A DNA stretch of 64,000 bases from Bradyrhizobium sp. LHD-71. Lineage in GTDB: Bacteria; Pseudomonadota; Alphaproteobacteria; Rhizobiales; Xanthobacteraceae. A program made the position numbers and the translations under genes. A model generated the notes under the pieces. It saw nothing but the letters and a program-made list of their open reading frames with translations. It did not search any database and was not told the origin of the DNA. Below are positions 13,918-19,914 of this stretch, one piece after another (position 1 is the stretch's first letter; each line of letters opens with the position of its first letter). The stretch covers positions 124,001-188,000 of the forward strand of contig NZ_JAVIFX010000002.1 of the NCBI RefSeq assembly GCF_031157255.1, in the 5' to 3' direction.

Positions 13918-15492
13918 TCAGGCCGGTTTTGCCGGTCTCTGCTCGAGCACCGCCATCGCCTGGCTGAGCATCACCTTGATCCGGTCGATCTCGTTCACAT
14001 TGATCGCGGCCGGATCGAGGTAGAAGCTGAGGCCGGCCGTTTCCTCGCTCAAGACCTGCGACTCCCCGCCCTCGGCCTCGAACAGGCGCTCCACCACATA
14101 AGGAATCACCTCCCGGCTGATGCCCTTCATCGTGATCGATGCCAATGGACGCGCGGTGATGAGCCTTTTCACCAAGGCATAGGTCTCGTAGCTCAAGACG
14201 ATGCGACCGGCTTCCGCTACCGACTGCAGCCGCGCGGCAAGGTTCGCTTCGGCACCGATGATCGTATAGTCCATGCGGTCGGCGCTGCCGAAATTTCCGA
14301 CATTGCAGTAGCCCGAATTGATGCCCATGCGGGCCTGGAACGGCTGCTCGATGCCGTGATTGCGCCAGTTGACGTTCAGCTCACGCAAGCGCTGCTGCAT
14401 CTCCCATGCCATACGCAGGCACGCTTCGGCATCGCCGACCTCGCCGCGACTCTCGGGATCGCCAAAGAAGATCAGCATGGCATCGCCAATGAACTTGTCG
14501 ATCGTTCCACCATGCTTCGTCGCGATCGCCGACATTTCGGTGAAATACTCATTGAGCAGAAGCGTCACCTGTTCGGGTTGCAAACGCTCCGTTGTCGCAG
14601 TGAAGTTCTGGATGTCGGAGAAGAAGATCGTCAGCTTCTTGCGCTCGGTGTGGATCGCAACATCCTTCTGGCCGCTGAAGATGCTCTTGTAGACCTGCGG
14701 GGAAATGTATCGCGAGATCTTCATGGAAAGGCTGGCGAGGAAATCATTCGCCGATTCGAGCTCCTGGTTCATCCGCCGGATCACACGCCCCTGCCGCTGC
14801 TGCAACAGGAGGAACGACACCCCGCAGATCGTCGCAATGGCGAAGTAGGCGAGCAGAAACTTGAACGAGAAAAGATTGGCGGCGATCGGCTGGGTGATCG
14901 TGACCTCCTGGATTCCGCGCACGTCGCCGACTTTCCAGTCGCGTTTTTGGCTTTCGGGATGGCTGTTGTGGCAGGACACGCACGCCGCTCCCATGATCAC
15001 CGGCGCAACCAGCCGAACACTGTCGCTCAACAACGACCATGACGACTCGACCAGCCGCTGGTCGGAATTCTCGCGCAGGCTCGCCAGCGCACGCTTCTCG
15101 AAGTCGTCCAGCACGTGCGGCGTGCGGTTGGCGAACGGAACATCGGACACGAAGCGGTATTGGATGTTCTGCTGCTGCTCGCTGATGACTTGCCCAAGTT
15201 CGAGCGAAAGCGTGGCGGGGATCGGAATGGCGCCGAGAACCGCTTCGTAGTTGTGGACTACCTGGGTCGAGCCCGGATTTGCCAGCACGCGGCCGACGAC
15301 ATTCGTCGAGTAGTAGCCGCGAACGCTGGAGATCACGGAGTTGAGGTCAGCGGCTTGGCGTCTGAGAGAGGTCTCGGCCAGATGGGTCAGGTCCAGCCAG
15401 ACTGCAACGGGCAATGCAGCCAGCAGCGCGGCAATCGCGCCTGCGATCAACAGGCTGCGGCCACGCAGCCTGGCTGAGTGATCATTTGCCAT
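13918..15492 (-). CDS. Membrane adenylate cyclase with periplasmic CxxCH (DUF3365-like) sensor domain
   Basis: 524 residues. Layout: membrane helix 1 (about 13-33), a periplasmic domain of about 175 residues containing CVSCH (C171, C174, H175), helix 2 (about 211-231), a coiled linker, and a class III nucleotide cyclase domain (about 285-450). The catalytic domain is complete: metal ligands D293 (FSDI) and D337 (GDA), purine-selecting K333 and D408, transition-state N417 and R421. The Lys/Asp pair points to ATP rather than GTP. The periplasmic part resembles DUF3365/Tll0287-like domains that bind c-type haem, so a haem-based redox or gas sensor is inferred. Start ATG 15492 gives a positively charged N-terminus before helix 1. 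Monocistronic by position. Confidence 0.85.
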   Translation of the reverse strand: MANDHSARLRGRSLLIAGAIAALLAALPVAVWLDLTHLAETSLRRQAADLNSVISSVRGYYSTNVVGRVLANPGSTQVVHNYEAVLGAIPIPATLSLELGQVISEQQQNIQYRFVSDVPFANRTPHVLDDFEKRALASLRENSDQRLVESSWSLLSDSVRLVAPVIMGAACVSCHNSHPESQKRDWKVGDVRGIQEVTITQPIAANLFSFKFLLAYFAIATICGVSFLLLQQRQGRVIRRMNQELESANDFLASLSMKISRYISPQVYKSIFSGQKDVAIHTERKKLTIFFSDIQNFTATTERLQPEQVTLLLNEYFTEMSAIATKHGGTIDKFIGDAMLIFFGDPESRGEVGDAEACLRMAWEMQQRLRELNVNWRNHGIEQPFQARMGINSGYCNVGNFGSADRMDYTIIGAEANLAARLQSVAEAGRIVLSYETYALVKRLITARPLASITMKGISREVIPYVVERLFEAEGGESQVLSEETAGLSFYLDPAAINVNEIDRIKVMLSQAMAVLEQRPAKPA

Positions 15493-15709
15493 GGTGATGC
15501 TTCCTCTTTCGTTCCCGGCCGGCAGAACCAGAGGATGCCCGGCAGACGGGACCTGCGGCCGCCAAAAAGGCTGCCTTGGCAGGCTTGCCGATCAGATAAC
15601 CGAGTGGAACTCACCGCAAGCAAAATCAACGCCCCGCTTTCGCCCCTGGGCTACGGTGCGGCAAGCTCGGGCAGCGCCCCTTATTCAATTGTCAAACAGC
15701 ATGCGGCCT

Positions 15710-15793
15710 GTAGCCCGGATGAGCGAAGCGACATCCGGGTGATATCTGTCGCAGAGTCAGCTCCCGGGTGTCGCTTCGCTCACCCGGGCTACG
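15710..15793. repeat. REP-like palindrome, family A copy 1
   Basis: Two arms of about 30 bases (starting GTAGCCCGGATGAGCGAAGC and ending in its near complement ending CACCCGGGCTAC) flank a short centre containing GCAGAGTCAG. A related element with the same arms and the same AGAGTCAG centre is at 29219-29367, which shows it is a dispersed repeat. Confidence 0.75.
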
Positions 15794-15939
15794 GACCCGG
15801 CTTCGCCCTACAGGCTACGCCGGGCACGCGTGCATCATCGCCCCCCTGTTCTTGTCCGGCCTGAGGCTTGCCGGTCGTCTTGTGCTTTCCTTCGGCCCGA
15901 AAGGGCTGTGCGGAACGCAAGGGCGTTTCACCGCGCCCG

Positions 15940-16160
15940 CGGCGCCATGTGCTCTTGGCAAGCACATGGCAGCCGTGTGCCTTTGGGAAGCACACGGCGG
16001 CCGTATGCCTTTTGGGGCACACGGCAAGCCACGGAGGAGGCTCAACGCCTGCGCTCCGCACGCGATGGTTCTTTTCACGGCTTGCTGCATGCCCCCGGGC
16101 CTCGCCACTTTCGCTGGCTTCGCCCGGTTCGTGCGAACTGTCGCCCGGGCATGCACTTGG
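15940..16160 (-). ncRNA. Candidate structured RNA: three tandem hairpins plus a branched stem
   Basis: Three consecutive hairpins: 15944-15953 with 15961-15970 (10 bp), 15972-15980 with 15990-15998 (9 bp), and 16000-16009 with 16016-16025 (10 bp; the one non-Watson-Crick pair is G-U if read on the minus strand but A-C on the plus strand, favouring minus-strand RNA). Upstream on the minus strand a long-range stem (16143-16154 with about 16087-16100) encloses two smaller hairpins, one ending in a GAAA tetraloop. The hairpin loops share a CCAA-like core. No protein function is apparent. Transcription is not shown; it could also be a dispersed DNA repeat. Confidence 0.35.
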
Positions 16161-16398
16161 ACCGTCCGTCCGTCGTACCGGCGTCTTTCCTTCAGGCATC
16201 ACACGGATTTCTCCGGCGCTTTCCAAAGGCCCGGCATCGTAACGGCCACCGCATCCCGCTCCGCATCGATAAGACGACCGCGACGCGCCCTTCCGTTGGA
16301 GCGGGACGGGAGGAGGATATTGCGGATAGGAATGAAGGCAAGAACAATTTCGGAAAAAAGAGAATTCGCTGTGAACATCCTGTGCAGATCGTCTCACT

Positions 16399-16477
16399 CG
16401 TCATTGCGAGCGGAGCGAAGCAATCCAGTCTGCGGTTGCGGCAATCGCCGCGCTGCTTCGCGGCTCGCAATGACGAG
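16399..16477. repeat. REP-like palindrome, family B copy 1
   Basis: Begins CGTCATTGCGAGCGGAGCGA and ends in the complementary CTCGCAATGACGAG, with GCAATCCAG inside. The same arms frame the element at 26486-26648. This is the classic form of REP sequence abundant in Bradyrhizobium-type genomes. Confidence 0.8.
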
Positions 16478-16563
16478 TTGCGCTGCTTGGCGCCGAAATC
16501 CGGCGAGCAAAGAACAATTGAACAAGGCTTGTTTGAATGGGCTTGCCCGTCGCTCCCCGCTTC

Positions 16564-19500
16564 TCAGAACCTCCAGGTGAACTGTCCCTTGATGGCGTGG
16601 TCCTCGGTGCTGCTGGCGAGCTGGCCGAGATAGGAGACGCCGAGCGTCATCTGTGGCGTGATGTTTAGGTCGAGCCCGGCTTCGACCAGCGCGCTGTCGC
16701 GCGCCAGCGGCACGCCGCTGATGCTGAAGCCCACGCCCGGGTTCTGCAAAAACGCCAGCACCGCCTCCGGCGTCACGTCGTTGAACGCATGCTGCCAGGC
16801 AAACGACGCCCGCGGCGTCAGCGCCGCGCCGTTCACCAGCGCAAACGTCGTCGCAAACCGTGCGCCCAGCGTCGAGTAGCCGACCTCCTCGGTAATGCTT
16901 GAGCCCCTGAGCGCGGCGACGCCATCACCCTCGGTGAAGCTGTTGGTCTTCACATGCACCCAGGCCAGCCCCGCGAACGGTTCGACCGCAAGCCGTCCGA
17001 GGTTGACCCCGTAGCCAAGCTCGCCGAACACCTGTCCGGTGCCGCCGCTGTAGTCGGCGGTGGCACGATCGACAAAGCCCGGGAACATGATCCGGCGACG
17101 GGTGTCGATCTCGTGATGCGCATAGGCCGCGCCGCCGCGCAAATTCCAGGCGCCGAAGCTGCCGCCGCCGTAGAGTGCGACGTGGCCGCTGTCGACCGTG
17201 GCGCGGCTGGCGCGATCACCGATGTTGACGTCGGATTGCGAATAGCCGGCCGCAAAGCCGACGCGCCAGCGATCCGCCAGACCGTTGCCCGCCAGATCGC
17301 CATCGAGTCCGACCAGCGCGCCGCCGAGGCTGCGCTTGACGCTCGCGGCATTGCCGTCGCCGTCGAAAGTACCCCAGGCGCCAAAACCCTGCGTCCAGAA
17401 TGTGAGGCCGGACGAACGCGGCGGCGGTGCACCGGGTGGCGGCGCCTTCGCCGGCAAGTCCGCCGCGTACGCCTCCTGCGGCGAGGGCTGATAGGCCAGC
17501 GCCGGCCCGCCGATCCCGAGCGCCGCCAGTGGTCCGCCTGCGCCCGCATAGGGCGCTTGCCGCAGCCGGCCGAGCACGGCGCTGCGCACATAGCGGCTGT
17601 CGTTGACGAGCACGCCGCCTACGCTCGCATGCACCTCGCCTGAGAGCGCATCGAAGGCGCGCCGTGCGTCCGCGGCGGTGGCTTGATTGAACACGGCGGC
17701 CCCCAGCGTGCTGTTAACGCCGCCGACCTGCAACGCATCGGCGACGGCGTGCTGATTGGGCGTCCGCGCGGCCGAATTGAACGGAAGCGCTGTCAGCGTC
17801 AGGAAAACGTTGTTGGTGTCGTTGCTGAGTGTCGGATCGAGGAAAACGGAGCTGACACTCACCGACAGCGTCTCGGTCCCGCTTACGCCTCCGTCAGCTC
17901 TGAGAATTGCGTAGGTGGTGGGGGTGTAGACACCGGGCGCGGCCACGACCCGCACGGTGCCGCCGAGCGTTGCCGTGCCGGTGACGTTGGTGCTGTCGGC
18001 GGCGGCGGGCGACACCTCGACCAGGTAGGTCGCCGCGGTCGAGAGCGCGAGATTGCCCTGCACATTGATCGTGCCGATTGAATTGCCCGGCGACAGCGTG
18101 CCGCCGTCGATCGTAGTCGCGGGCAGAGTGCCGCTGCCGCCGACGAGGCCACCGCCATTGACCGTGAGACGACTCGACGAAGAAATCGAGCCGTTCACGA
18201 TCAGCGCGCCGCCGTTGACGGTCATGTCGCCGGTATGGATGGCGGTGCCGGTCAGCGTCCAGGTGCTTCCGCCGCTCTTCTCGAAATGCTCGAATCCCCG
18301 ATGCTGCCCTGTGTCGCCAACCTGGCTGATGTCGAAGGCACCATCCACCTCGCCGCCCAGCGCCAGGGTGTCGCTGCTGCCGCCAACGGCGTTCACTGCG
18401 CCCTGGATGTTGGAGCCCTGCCGCAGTTCGAGCCGGTTGTTGCCGCCGGCGAAGGTGATGGCGTCGCCACCGCCGCCGCCGATAATCGTGCCGCTGTTGA
18501 TCAGGGTGCCACCATTGACAAAGACGGCGGGGCCGGCGGGGCCGCTGTCGCCGCCGTGGCCGTTGTTGATCGTGCCGTGATTGATCTTGCTAGCACCATT
18601 GCTGAGCGACACGCCGGCGCCGCCGGCGCCGCCGCCGTTGCCGATGCCGCCGTTGCCGCCGTTGATCGTGCCGTAATTGGTCAGAGTGGCGCCACTGCCG
18701 GAGAGCGAGACGCCGTTGCCGCCGGTGCCGCCGCCCCAGCCGCCGGTGCCGCCGGTGATCGTGCCGTGATTGGTCAGAGTGGTGCTACTGCCGGAGAGCG
18801 AGACGCCGGTGCCGCCGGTGCCGCTGGGGCCGAACTTGTTGTTGCTGCCGTAGCGACCGCCGGGGCCGCCGGGGCCACCGGTGCCGCCGGTGATCTTGCC
18901 GTAATTGGTAATACTGGCGCCATTAGCCGAGTAGACCCCGGCCCCGCCACCTCCGCCCGTGCCACCGATTGCGGGACTCGAGCCGGACGGGGCGAACCCC
19001 GTGCCGCCGTAGCCGCCGCTGCCGCCGGTAATAGTTGAGGAGGCGCCGACCGTCACTTGGCTGATCCCGGTGAGCATGAGGCCGGTGCCGCCAGTGCCCC
19101 CCTCACCGGCGTAGCCCCCGGTGGGGACAGCCGGATCGCCGCCGTTGCCGCCGTTGCCGCCGGTGCCGCCTTGGAGGTTGACGCCGATCGTACCGAGCGA
19201 ACCTGAACCCGTGACGACTGCGCCAAAGCCACCGGCGCCGCCACCACCGCCGCCACCGCCGTCATGGAAGTGCTCGCTGCTGCCGTCGCCGCCGCGCCCG
19301 CCGTTGCCGCCCGTCCCGCTAGAGGTCGGCAGCGTAGACCCGGAGGGGCCGGTCACAAAAAAGTGCCCCCCACCGCCACCGCCGCCGCCACCACCGCCGT
19401 CGTTGCCCTTGCCGCCGTCGAGGCCGGTGCCGCCGGTGCCGCCGGTGGGGCTGTAGACGCCCCAGCCGCCCTTGCCGTAACCGCTGCTTTCGCCGCTGTC

Positions 19501-19914
19501 GTTGCCGCCGTTGCCGCCGAAGCCGTAGAAGCCGCTGCCGCCACCACCACCGCCGCCGCCGGTGGTGCCTACACCACCGGCGGCGGGTTTGTCCGTGGGC
19601 TTGTCGGACGCGCCTTGGCCGCCGGTGCCGCTGCCGCCGTTGGCGCCGCCATTGCCGCCCCTCGCAAAGACGGGCGGCGCGGCGACCAGCAGAGTCCCCA
19701 CCAGCGCCACGGCAACCAGCGCCGTCGTGCCGATGAGCACCCGCCTCAGCCGGCGGATGCGAACGGAAGGATCGTGCGAGATTTTTGCCGGCCGCGCCCG
19801 CCGAACGGCGCCGTCGAAGCGCCCATGCGTGGAGGCGATCAAAGCATCCGGCCTGACCGGCGGCATCTGATGACGTTGCGCCTGATGAAAGAGCCTGTCG
19901 ACGGTCCGCCGCAT
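16564..19914 (-). CDS. Autotransporter with glycine-rich passenger domain
   Basis: 1116 residues. After a long basic N-terminal extension (1-58) comes a hydrophobic signal segment (about 59-79) with likely cleavage after VFA84. The passenger from 85 to about 480 is built of GGxGG repeats and of repeated units such as TLTNYGTINGG and TLTNHGTITGG, typical of a right-handed beta-helix. Residues about 540-690 show passenger-associated strand repeats (NGGALIVNGSI, GGTLSPGNSIGTINVQG). The last about 280 residues form the outer-membrane beta-barrel, ending in FTWRF, with the terminal aromatic residue needed for BAM insertion. Predicted to be a surface or adhesion protein. ATG 19914 is taken as start; MPPVRPDALI (residue 17) is an alternative. 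Confidence 0.87.
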   Translation of the reverse strand: MRRTVDRLFHQAQRHQMPPVRPDALIASTHGRFDGAVRRARPAKISHDPSVRIRRLRRVLIGTTALVAVALVGTLLVAAPPVFARGGNGGANGGSGTGGQGASDKPTDKPAAGGVGTTGGGGGGGGSGFYGFGGNGGNDSGESSGYGKGGWGVYSPTGGTGGTGLDGGKGNDGGGGGGGGGGGHFFVTGPSGSTLPTSSGTGGNGGRGGDGSSEHFHDGGGGGGGGAGGFGAVVTGSGSLGTIGVNLQGGTGGNGGNGGDPAVPTGGYAGEGGTGGTGLMLTGISQVTVGASSTITGGSGGYGGTGFAPSGSSPAIGGTGGGGGAGVYSANGASITNYGKITGGTGGPGGPGGRYGSNNKFGPSGTGGTGVSLSGSSTTLTNHGTITGGTGGWGGGTGGNGVSLSGSGATLTNYGTINGGNGGIGNGGGAGGAGVSLSNGASKINHGTINNGHGGDSGPAGPAVFVNGGTLINSGTIIGGGGGDAITFAGGNNRLELRQGSNIQGAVNAVGGSSDTLALGGEVDGAFDISQVGDTGQHRGFEHFEKSGGSTWTLTGTAIHTGDMTVNGGALIVNGSISSSSRLTVNGGGLVGGSGTLPATTIDGGTLSPGNSIGTINVQGNLALSTAATYLVEVSPAAADSTNVTGTATLGGTVRVVAAPGVYTPTTYAILRADGGVSGTETLSVSVSSVFLDPTLSNDTNNVFLTLTALPFNSAARTPNQHAVADALQVGGVNSTLGAAVFNQATAADARRAFDALSGEVHASVGGVLVNDSRYVRSAVLGRLRQAPYAGAGGPLAALGIGGPALAYQPSPQEAYAADLPAKAPPPGAPPPRSSGLTFWTQGFGAWGTFDGDGNAASVKRSLGGALVGLDGDLAGNGLADRWRVGFAAGYSQSDVNIGDRASRATVDSGHVALYGGGSFGAWNLRGGAAYAHHEIDTRRRIMFPGFVDRATADYSGGTGQVFGELGYGVNLGRLAVEPFAGLAWVHVKTNSFTEGDGVAALRGSSITEEVGYSTLGARFATTFALVNGAALTPRASFAWQHAFNDVTPEAVLAFLQNPGVGFSISGVPLARDSALVEAGLDLNITPQMTLGVSYLGQLASSTEDHAIKGQFTWRF

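Follow-up and report, generated by a model that had tools for sequence, protein, structure and literature searches.

We identify a repeated, folded, non-coding unit on the minus strand at ~16341 to ~15825 of the window (the whole 64,000-nucleotide stretch of Bradyrhizobium sp. LHD-71 DNA analysed here) and read it, with a probability of roughly three in four, as one copy of a dosage-amplified family of structured RNA genes acting in trans. Comparison among copies shows a conserved structure with compensatory changes, no coding and multi-copy dispersal; in several genera, promoter-like boxes keep a constant position, and in several genomes the copies are homogeneous by lineage. From these comparisons, it is highly probable that the unit is an RNA gene, while the evidence leans slightly toward a product that works in trans. 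An earlier note, made from the letters of the window, had proposed a possible undescribed structured RNA or repeat within coordinates that cover less than half of the unit, and both descriptions hold, as the unit is a dispersed repeat and carries compensatory changes. "Undescribed" is meant here with respect to Rfam 15 and the open-access literature only.

A 431-base query from the region retrieved, by BLAST, itself and further dispersed copies with differing flanks in the window's own genome (G000), with a contig end cutting 5 of 19 copies. Searching the same genome with a covariance model of the RNA core (R1) returned 21 copies. Three of these, on C27, C28 and C32 (L078, L080 and L079, L-numbers denoting single loci), are 100% identical to genome G025 over ~1.94 kb and were therefore left out of the copy count as probable contamination; the assembly seems to include these contigs from a Bradyrhizobium-like strain. 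This leaves 18 R1 copies, or 19 if a fragment at the end of contig C49, detected by BLAST, is included. The unit spans ~500 to 650 bp (~650 bp at one G025 locus), and its boundaries stay the same where the flanking DNA is unrelated. The genes on either side of the window copy are both co-directional with the RNA. By Pfam, the minus-strand neighbour at 13918-15492 is a Tll0287-like sensor that also carries a guanylate/adenylate cyclase domain, and the minus-strand neighbour at 16564-19914 is an autotransporter. The features of the window copy, in the order in which the minus strand is read, are as follows.

16336..16341, minus strand: -35-like box TTGCCT of a candidate promoter; place and 16-nt spacing kept in the G000 copies
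16314..16319, minus strand: -10-like box TATCCT; TACGAT, TATCAT or TACCAT in other copies
16298..16308, minus strand: 5' arm of the 5' stem, CGTCCCGCTCC; standard pairs in 708 of 745 ungapped cells
16252..16262, minus strand: 3' arm of the 5' stem, GGAGCGGGATG; paired with 16298..16308
16246..16252, minus strand: 5' arm of a long-range helix, GCGGTGG; 461 of 476 cells are standard
16086..16155, minus strand: branched arm with small hairpins, the 12-bp pairing of the earlier note; seen in the fold and in compensatory changes
16062..16068, minus strand: 3' arm of the long-range helix, CCATCGC; folding 15900-16200 as a single sequence gives two of these bases other partners
16044..16061, minus strand: 5' arm of core stem P1; conserved structure, covariation
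15944..16025, minus strand: arm Pc, three tandem hairpins; 1 or 2 hairpins in other G000 copies
15908..15927, minus strand: 3' arm of core stem P1; conserved structure, covariation
15895..15906, minus strand: tentative 3' hairpin GCCCTTTCGGGC; 15900-15906 pair elsewhere in the single-sequence fold
15856..15874, minus strand: tentative 3' hairpin CCGGCAAGCCTCAGGCCGG; 90 Watson-Crick cells, 5 gaps, no variation
15825..15850, minus strand: conserved 3' end CAGGGGGCGATGATGC; the RNA would end near here
15706..15798, no strand assigned: separate REP-like palindrome between the RNA and the boxA-like motif; no match beside L006, L009, L012, L014, L016 or L018
15683..15700, minus strand: boxA-like motif GCTGTTTGACAATTGAAT, 3' of the RNA; recurs 3' of some copies

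A second, different REP-like palindrome (CGTCATTGCGAG...) lies at 16396-16478, on the other side of the RNA gene, and several G025 copies also have this palindrome on their downstream side.

The minimum-free-energy fold of the minus strand contains the three back-to-back hairpins that the earlier note had described, at 15944-15970, 15972-15998 and 16000-16025, with stems of 11, 11 and 10 bp instead of the 9-10 bp it gave; across the G000 copies, the number of these hairpins is 1, 2 or 3. Their lone non-Watson-Crick pair, 16005:16020, is A.C on the plus strand and U.G on the minus strand, as had been noticed. The 12-bp long-range arm proposed beyond them also exists, but the fold splits it into a 9-bp piece (16086-16094 with 16147-16155) and a 6-bp piece (16095-16100 with 16122-16127). 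It does enclose two small hairpins, at 16104-16118 and 16133-16144 (alternatively 16126-16139), and the loop of the hairpin at 16104-16118 carries the expected GAAA on the minus strand. The impression that there is more structure here than chance would give was correct: the fold of 15900-16200 on the minus strand has an energy of -173.3 kcal/mol (z -9.2, with 0 of 100 shuffles as stable), and the effect is less marked on the plus strand (z -3.6, with none of 100 shuffles reaching its stability). By eye, a four-way junction is another possible drawing of the core, in which a local CGCCGG/CCGGCG hairpin would compete with P1.

RNAalifold on 19 sequences gave a structure of 33 pairs, 12 of them with double changes. 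This structure, transferred by sequence-only alignment, fits 91.4% of the ungapped pair cells (3291 of 3600) in 116 other sequences, a test set from which we had left out all G000 cores, five cores in the defining alignment and three duplicates (121 to 118), as well as two further sequences overlapping the defining alignment (118 to 116). The earlier note had suggested looking for covariation among homologues, and compensatory changes are indeed present: we counted 42 same-branch compensatory changes in the 116 sequences, compared to a mean of 6.4 and a maximum of 14 in 200 null replicates in which substitutions were reshuffled within the branches of the tree. With the two overlapping sequences kept (118), the count was 44, against a null mean of 5.5 and maximum of 16. 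A stricter, R-scape-like pairwise G-test on the whole RNA (L290 and L295 left out) returned no significant pair, a negative result that counts against the RNA-gene reading, although we read it as low power.

The mismatches also carry information about which strand is folded. Across the 116 sequences, G-U cells outnumber A-C cells on the minus strand by 529 to 89. Single changes away from a Watson-Crick pair number 87 for GU and 27 for AC, compared to 97 and 64 in the shuffles; as AC is depleted and GU is not raised relative to the shuffles, the strand evidence is supportive, though weaker than the raw counts imply. The 5' stem has 85 GU and 5 AC cells and 9 compensatory branch changes against a null maximum of 5, in a test that is not independent because the stem was defined on part of the sequences scored. 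The long-range helix GCGGUGG:CCAYCGC has 49 GU and 0 AC cells and no same-branch double change. Within the 5' domain, a proposed third helix further in did not hold up, having 72 mismatches. Among the G000 copies, the tandem hairpins of Pc hold 22 GU-on-minus, 2 AC-on-minus and 6 other mismatches. Individual pairs in these copies change in a compensatory manner, with 16092:16149 in the branched arm going from C-G to T-A (the wobble intermediate is present), 16107:16115 in the same arm from A-T to G-C in 1 copy, and 15898:15903 in hairpin GCCCTTTCGGGC from C-G to T-A in 2 copies. The all-helix total over the G000 copies (GU 90, AC 22) includes a one-base-misplaced Pe helix, whose counts we do not use, and 18 of its 22 AC cells are contributed by a single outer pair in an alternative hairpin.

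Upstream of the 5' stem, the boxes listed above suggest a promoter from which transcription would start near 16307. At least 10 of 12 matches to TTGACA/TATAAT, with a spacing of 16 to 18 and at a fixed distance before the 5' stem, were found in 26 of 102 scored copies. By genome, this level was reached in G001 (4/4), G017 (9/9), G027 (4/4), G029 (1/1), G034 (1/1), G006 (3/6) and G026 (1/3), and in 3 of 43 catalogued loci (here and below, the named loci plus two IMG/VR loci), and by no scored copy of G000 (0/13), G025 (0/15), G020, G024 or G033 (0/1 each). TTGACA itself stands at the -35-like place in the G001, G017 and G027 copies. In G000, TTGCCT-N16-TATCCT or a similar arrangement gives 8 of 12 matches in 12 of 13 copies, a level also reached by 36 of 514 control windows; that the window-type promoter scores only 8 of 12 speaks against the RNA-gene reading, as does the failure of all 15 scored G025 copies, of 40 of 43 catalogued loci and of the single copies of G020, G024 and G033 to reach 10 of 12. 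L073 and L074 in this genome have a different spacer between similar boxes. The promoter, boxA and neighbour counts leave out 4 of the 18 G000 copies, which lie near contig ends, and the promoter count also omits one further copy without a scored 5' end, giving 13.

Other upstream arrangements occur. The G025 copies share a block with the palindrome CCGAAATTCGG, perhaps an operator. At the place of the -35 box of other genera, they carry TTTACC, a possible -35 box with a background score; TGTCAA, upstream in the same genome, was dropped as a -35 candidate. A conserved block, AAAATATTCCACTTTACCGAAATTCGG, with a palindrome precedes the 5' stem in L109-L125, and a similar remnant is present in G377 and G419. 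In a second upstream type, seen at L261, L262, L278, L288 and L289 (G006, G024, G026 and G033), CTTATCCCCG or a similar sequence replaces TTGACA.

On the 3' side, the 11-mer GCTGTTTGACA (at most 1 mismatch, 40 to 300 nt 3' of the core) occurs in the sense orientation in 39 of 136 copies, compared to 1 of 136 antisense and 1 of 90 control windows. The sense motif accompanies 11 of 14 G000 copies, 4 of 6 in G006, 0 of 17 in G025 and 13 of 65 catalogued copies. Its longer form, the 18-mer GCTGTTTGACAATTGAAT, is present at 16 places in G000 at up to 2 mismatches, 11 of them adjoining copies. The 11-mer also lies in the 16S leaders of G025 and G006, where we take it to be boxA; no 16S was found in the G000 assembly. 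Its position downstream of the RNA, with no sense copy in G025, counts against the RNA-gene reading. Using heuristic, GC3-filtered ORFs, we found the nearest upstream ORF to be co-directional in 12 of the 16 G025 copies that have one and the nearest downstream ORF to be opposite in 9 of 16. In G000, G001, G006 and G017, the downstream ORF (also heuristic) is convergent in 13 of the 20 copies for which one was called, which makes antitermination into a neighbouring gene unlikely.

Protein coding was rejected for the element. Its long ORFs (270 aa on the plus strand and 202 aa on the minus strand) have no Pfam match, and indels and stops interrupt most frames in four other copies checked, with single frames staying open in some of the five copies checked. 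Relative to the window copy, 104 of 107 indels are not multiples of three, many of them shared by descent. Of the 17 G025 copies, one has a GC3-filtered ORF that overlaps the edge of the unit.

Known RNA families were searched with Rfam 15, which found four tRNAs in the 64-kb window and no family at the gathering threshold on the element. At E up to 10, the interval 15600-16560 gave 12 matches, all below gathering: 9 on the neighbouring REP palindrome (the source of a mir-1304 match), 1 outside, and 2 on the RNA, namely, a glycine riboswitch at 16.8 of 32 bits and MAT2A_B at 15.2 of 45. The same scan of 15 relatives at E up to 1 gave 5 matches, none of which reached gathering and all of which, to judge from their coordinates, lie in 3' flanks; WsnRNA46 scored highest, at 43 of 65.3 bits. 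Nor is the element a tRNA, as a tRNA gene was present in 3 of 36 loci scanned and none lay at the element. BLAST gave no match in either a plasmid or a phage collection, and a plasmid or phage origin was rejected. Three IMG/VR viral contigs (L246, L247 and L248) carry the core pattern, in what may be viral or host DNA, and two of the three also match R1 (128 and 93 bits). We found no description of the element in the titles, abstracts and available passages of the open-access literature.

Beyond its own genome, the family is widespread within one bacterial family, with sequence profiles detecting diverged copies in other genera. At E 0.001, R1 matched 19 of 61 genomes, its own included, and, of the 24 genomes examined from the order's other families, one (G038, with 2 weak matches) was a weak case. 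A survey at E 1e-6 found it in 256 of 391 genomes and 24 of 47 genera of the same family, with per-genome copy counts recorded up to 8. An exact 23-mer from the element had no match in named genomes, while a degenerate 24-mer core pattern had at least 120 stretches there. Among the matches listed, 80 loci belong mainly to Bradyrhizobium, along with Afipia clevelandensis and unclassified relatives (10 of the 80 were left out at the R1-matching step), so the earlier impression of recurrence in Bradyrhizobium-type genomes is borne out by named records. As the listed loci are mainly Bradyrhizobium, G025, which has 17 copies by R1, is probably a Bradyrhizobium as well.

At one locus, compared across 8 genomes chosen from 40 searched, a copy is in place in 6, with a right neighbour common to all six and a left neighbour shown in two. 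In the other two, G377 and G419, the RNA body is gone and a 5'-like remnant is left (judged by eye), which points to loss, not insertion, as the reason for the absence at this one locus. Relative to the G025 copy there, five sister G025 copies are 95 to 97% identical, the other eleven are 75 to 97% identical over full or partial stretches, and same-site copies in six other genomes are 78 to 90% identical. In the tree, 14 G000 copies form a single clade and the 17 G025 copies another; single clades are also seen in G001, G027, G033, G034 and G035, and not in G006 (4 clades), G017 (3) or G026 (2). Either concerted evolution or repeated re-amplification would give such homogeneity within genomes.

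The main rival of an RNA gene is a mobile repeat, i.e., a non-autonomous, MITE- or BIME-like DNA element whose hairpins would be cruciforms or transposase sites and whose promoter boxes would be incidental. Nearly 20 G000 copies scattered among differing flanks (a contig end truncates 5 of 19), recurrent boundaries within unrelated surroundings, REP-like palindromes on both sides of the window copy and subfamilies within genomes are all what such an element would produce. We nevertheless consider it improbable, as the depletion of AC cells relative to shuffles (27 versus 64) and the excess of GU over AC in the 5' stem (85 versus 5) and the long-range helix (49 versus 0) concern G.T pairs on one strand that are useless to a cruciform, and the promoter boxes keep a fixed distance in several genera. 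Furthermore, the 6 of 8 genomes with the element and 2 of 8 with a decayed 5' remnant (by eye) at the one locus tested point to inheritance and loss, and a casual, unsystematic look noticed no target-site duplication. A mobile element with an RNA as its working part (SINE-like, or a guide or omega-RNA without its nuclease) would accommodate both the RNA-level covariation and the amplification of single lineages (14 G000 and 17 G025 copies, one clade each). This too seems a poor prospect: the ORFs of the window copy lack Pfam matches, an ORF overlap occurs only at the edge of that single G025 copy, and no Rfam family matches at threshold. In addition, the G000 copies share sequence upstream of the presumed start, which argues against retroposition, since retroposition would lose it.

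A third explanation, which we regard as less probable still, is that the unit acts in cis on the genes beside it, as their 3' UTR or leader element. The orientation of the two genes that flank the window copy would suit it, as would the co-directional upstream ORF in 12 of 16 G025 copies; however, the opposite downstream ORFs (9 of 16 in G025 and 13 of 20 in G000, G001, G006 and G017, by heuristic ORFs) and the unit's own promoter boxes in several genera do not. The same absence of consistent neighbours, by heuristic ORFs, is the reason for proposing that the RNA acts in trans.

Under the preferred reading of a trans-acting RNA gene family, an RNA of ~450 to 650 nt would be made from its own sigma-70-type promoter, here from ~16307 to ~15825, and the folded product would work in trans, alone or with proteins. 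The nearly 20 copies would provide gene dosage in the manner of rRNA or tRNA genes and would be kept alike through gene conversion or repeated re-amplification. The 1, 2 or 3 tandem hairpins would represent local expansion of one arm with pairing kept. More weakly, the downstream boxA-like motif hints that Nus antitermination factors bind the transcript, a role that we consider doubtful.

Bacteria have few large structured RNAs that yield no protein, and for most of them a function is still to be established. It is conceivable, although we think it rather unlikely, that the family represents a new large RNA machine (an RNP scaffold, an RNA-only assembly or a ribozyme) whose genetics in Bradyrhizobium and its relatives would resemble those of rRNA. 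Such a machine would fit the many homogenised copies at dispersed sites, the boxA signal and the strong promoters seen in several genera, and its variable tandem hairpins would then form a peripheral module open to exchange. The RNA would occur in many copies in soil and nodule bacteria, and as these carriers have RNA-seq data and genetics, its transcription, structure and function are directly testable. The family could also account for some stretches annotated as hypothetical proteins.

REP- and BIME-type repeats are built from short palindromic units of tens of bases, and the present unit, at ~500 to 650 bp, does not have that length. The available text of Hahn et al. 2016 (PMC5082802) describes two such repeats, Br-REP1 and Br-REP2, along with ten sRNAs of Bradyrhizobium. 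The repeats are short palindromes with consensus lengths of 20 and ~40 nt at ~200 and at least 50 intergenic sites, and they resemble the present family as intergenic stem-loop repeats of the same bacterial group with RNA-seq reads (PMC5082802). The earlier note would have taken a match to a known REP-type element as counter-evidence, and no match to the consensus sequences given in the available text was found in the window when up to 3 mismatches were allowed (PMC5082802). The same text also refers, without showing the data, to a larger element of which Br-REP2 is part (PMC5082802), so the distinction drawn here covers the two short consensus palindromes. The sRNAs, BjsR1-BjsR10 of B. japonicum USDA 110, are intergenic and in some cases have 2 to 4 imperfect copies; as described in that text, they differ from the present family in their fewer copies and in blot markers of 60 to 160 nt (PMC5082802). 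This separation is made by description, and one of the sRNAs may correspond to a fragment of the present RNA. The accessible text of Cuklina et al. 2016 (PMC4842269), a dRNA-seq study of B. japonicum USDA 110, contains no mention of repeat, repetitive or copies.

An rRNA leader with boxA shares GCTGTTTGACA with the family, as this motif lies in the G025 and G006 16S leaders and 3' of part of the copies. In contrast to a leader, the boxA-like motif is here 3' of the RNA, nothing conserved was seen after it, and the element has no rRNA match by Rfam.

OLE, ROOL and GOLLD are, in the available text of PMC12286853, also large, elaborately folded bacterial RNAs with covariation, and the lack of coding and the conserved fold of the present family are its likeness to them. 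The family differs from these RNAs in having no Rfam 15 match at threshold, with no sequence relation found, in its presence in one bacterial family with one weak case outside it, and in its up to ~20 chromosomal copies per genome. To our knowledge, many chromosomal copies per genome are unlike OLE, ROOL and GOLLD. By analogy, such large ornate RNAs appear to be the closest kind to this family.
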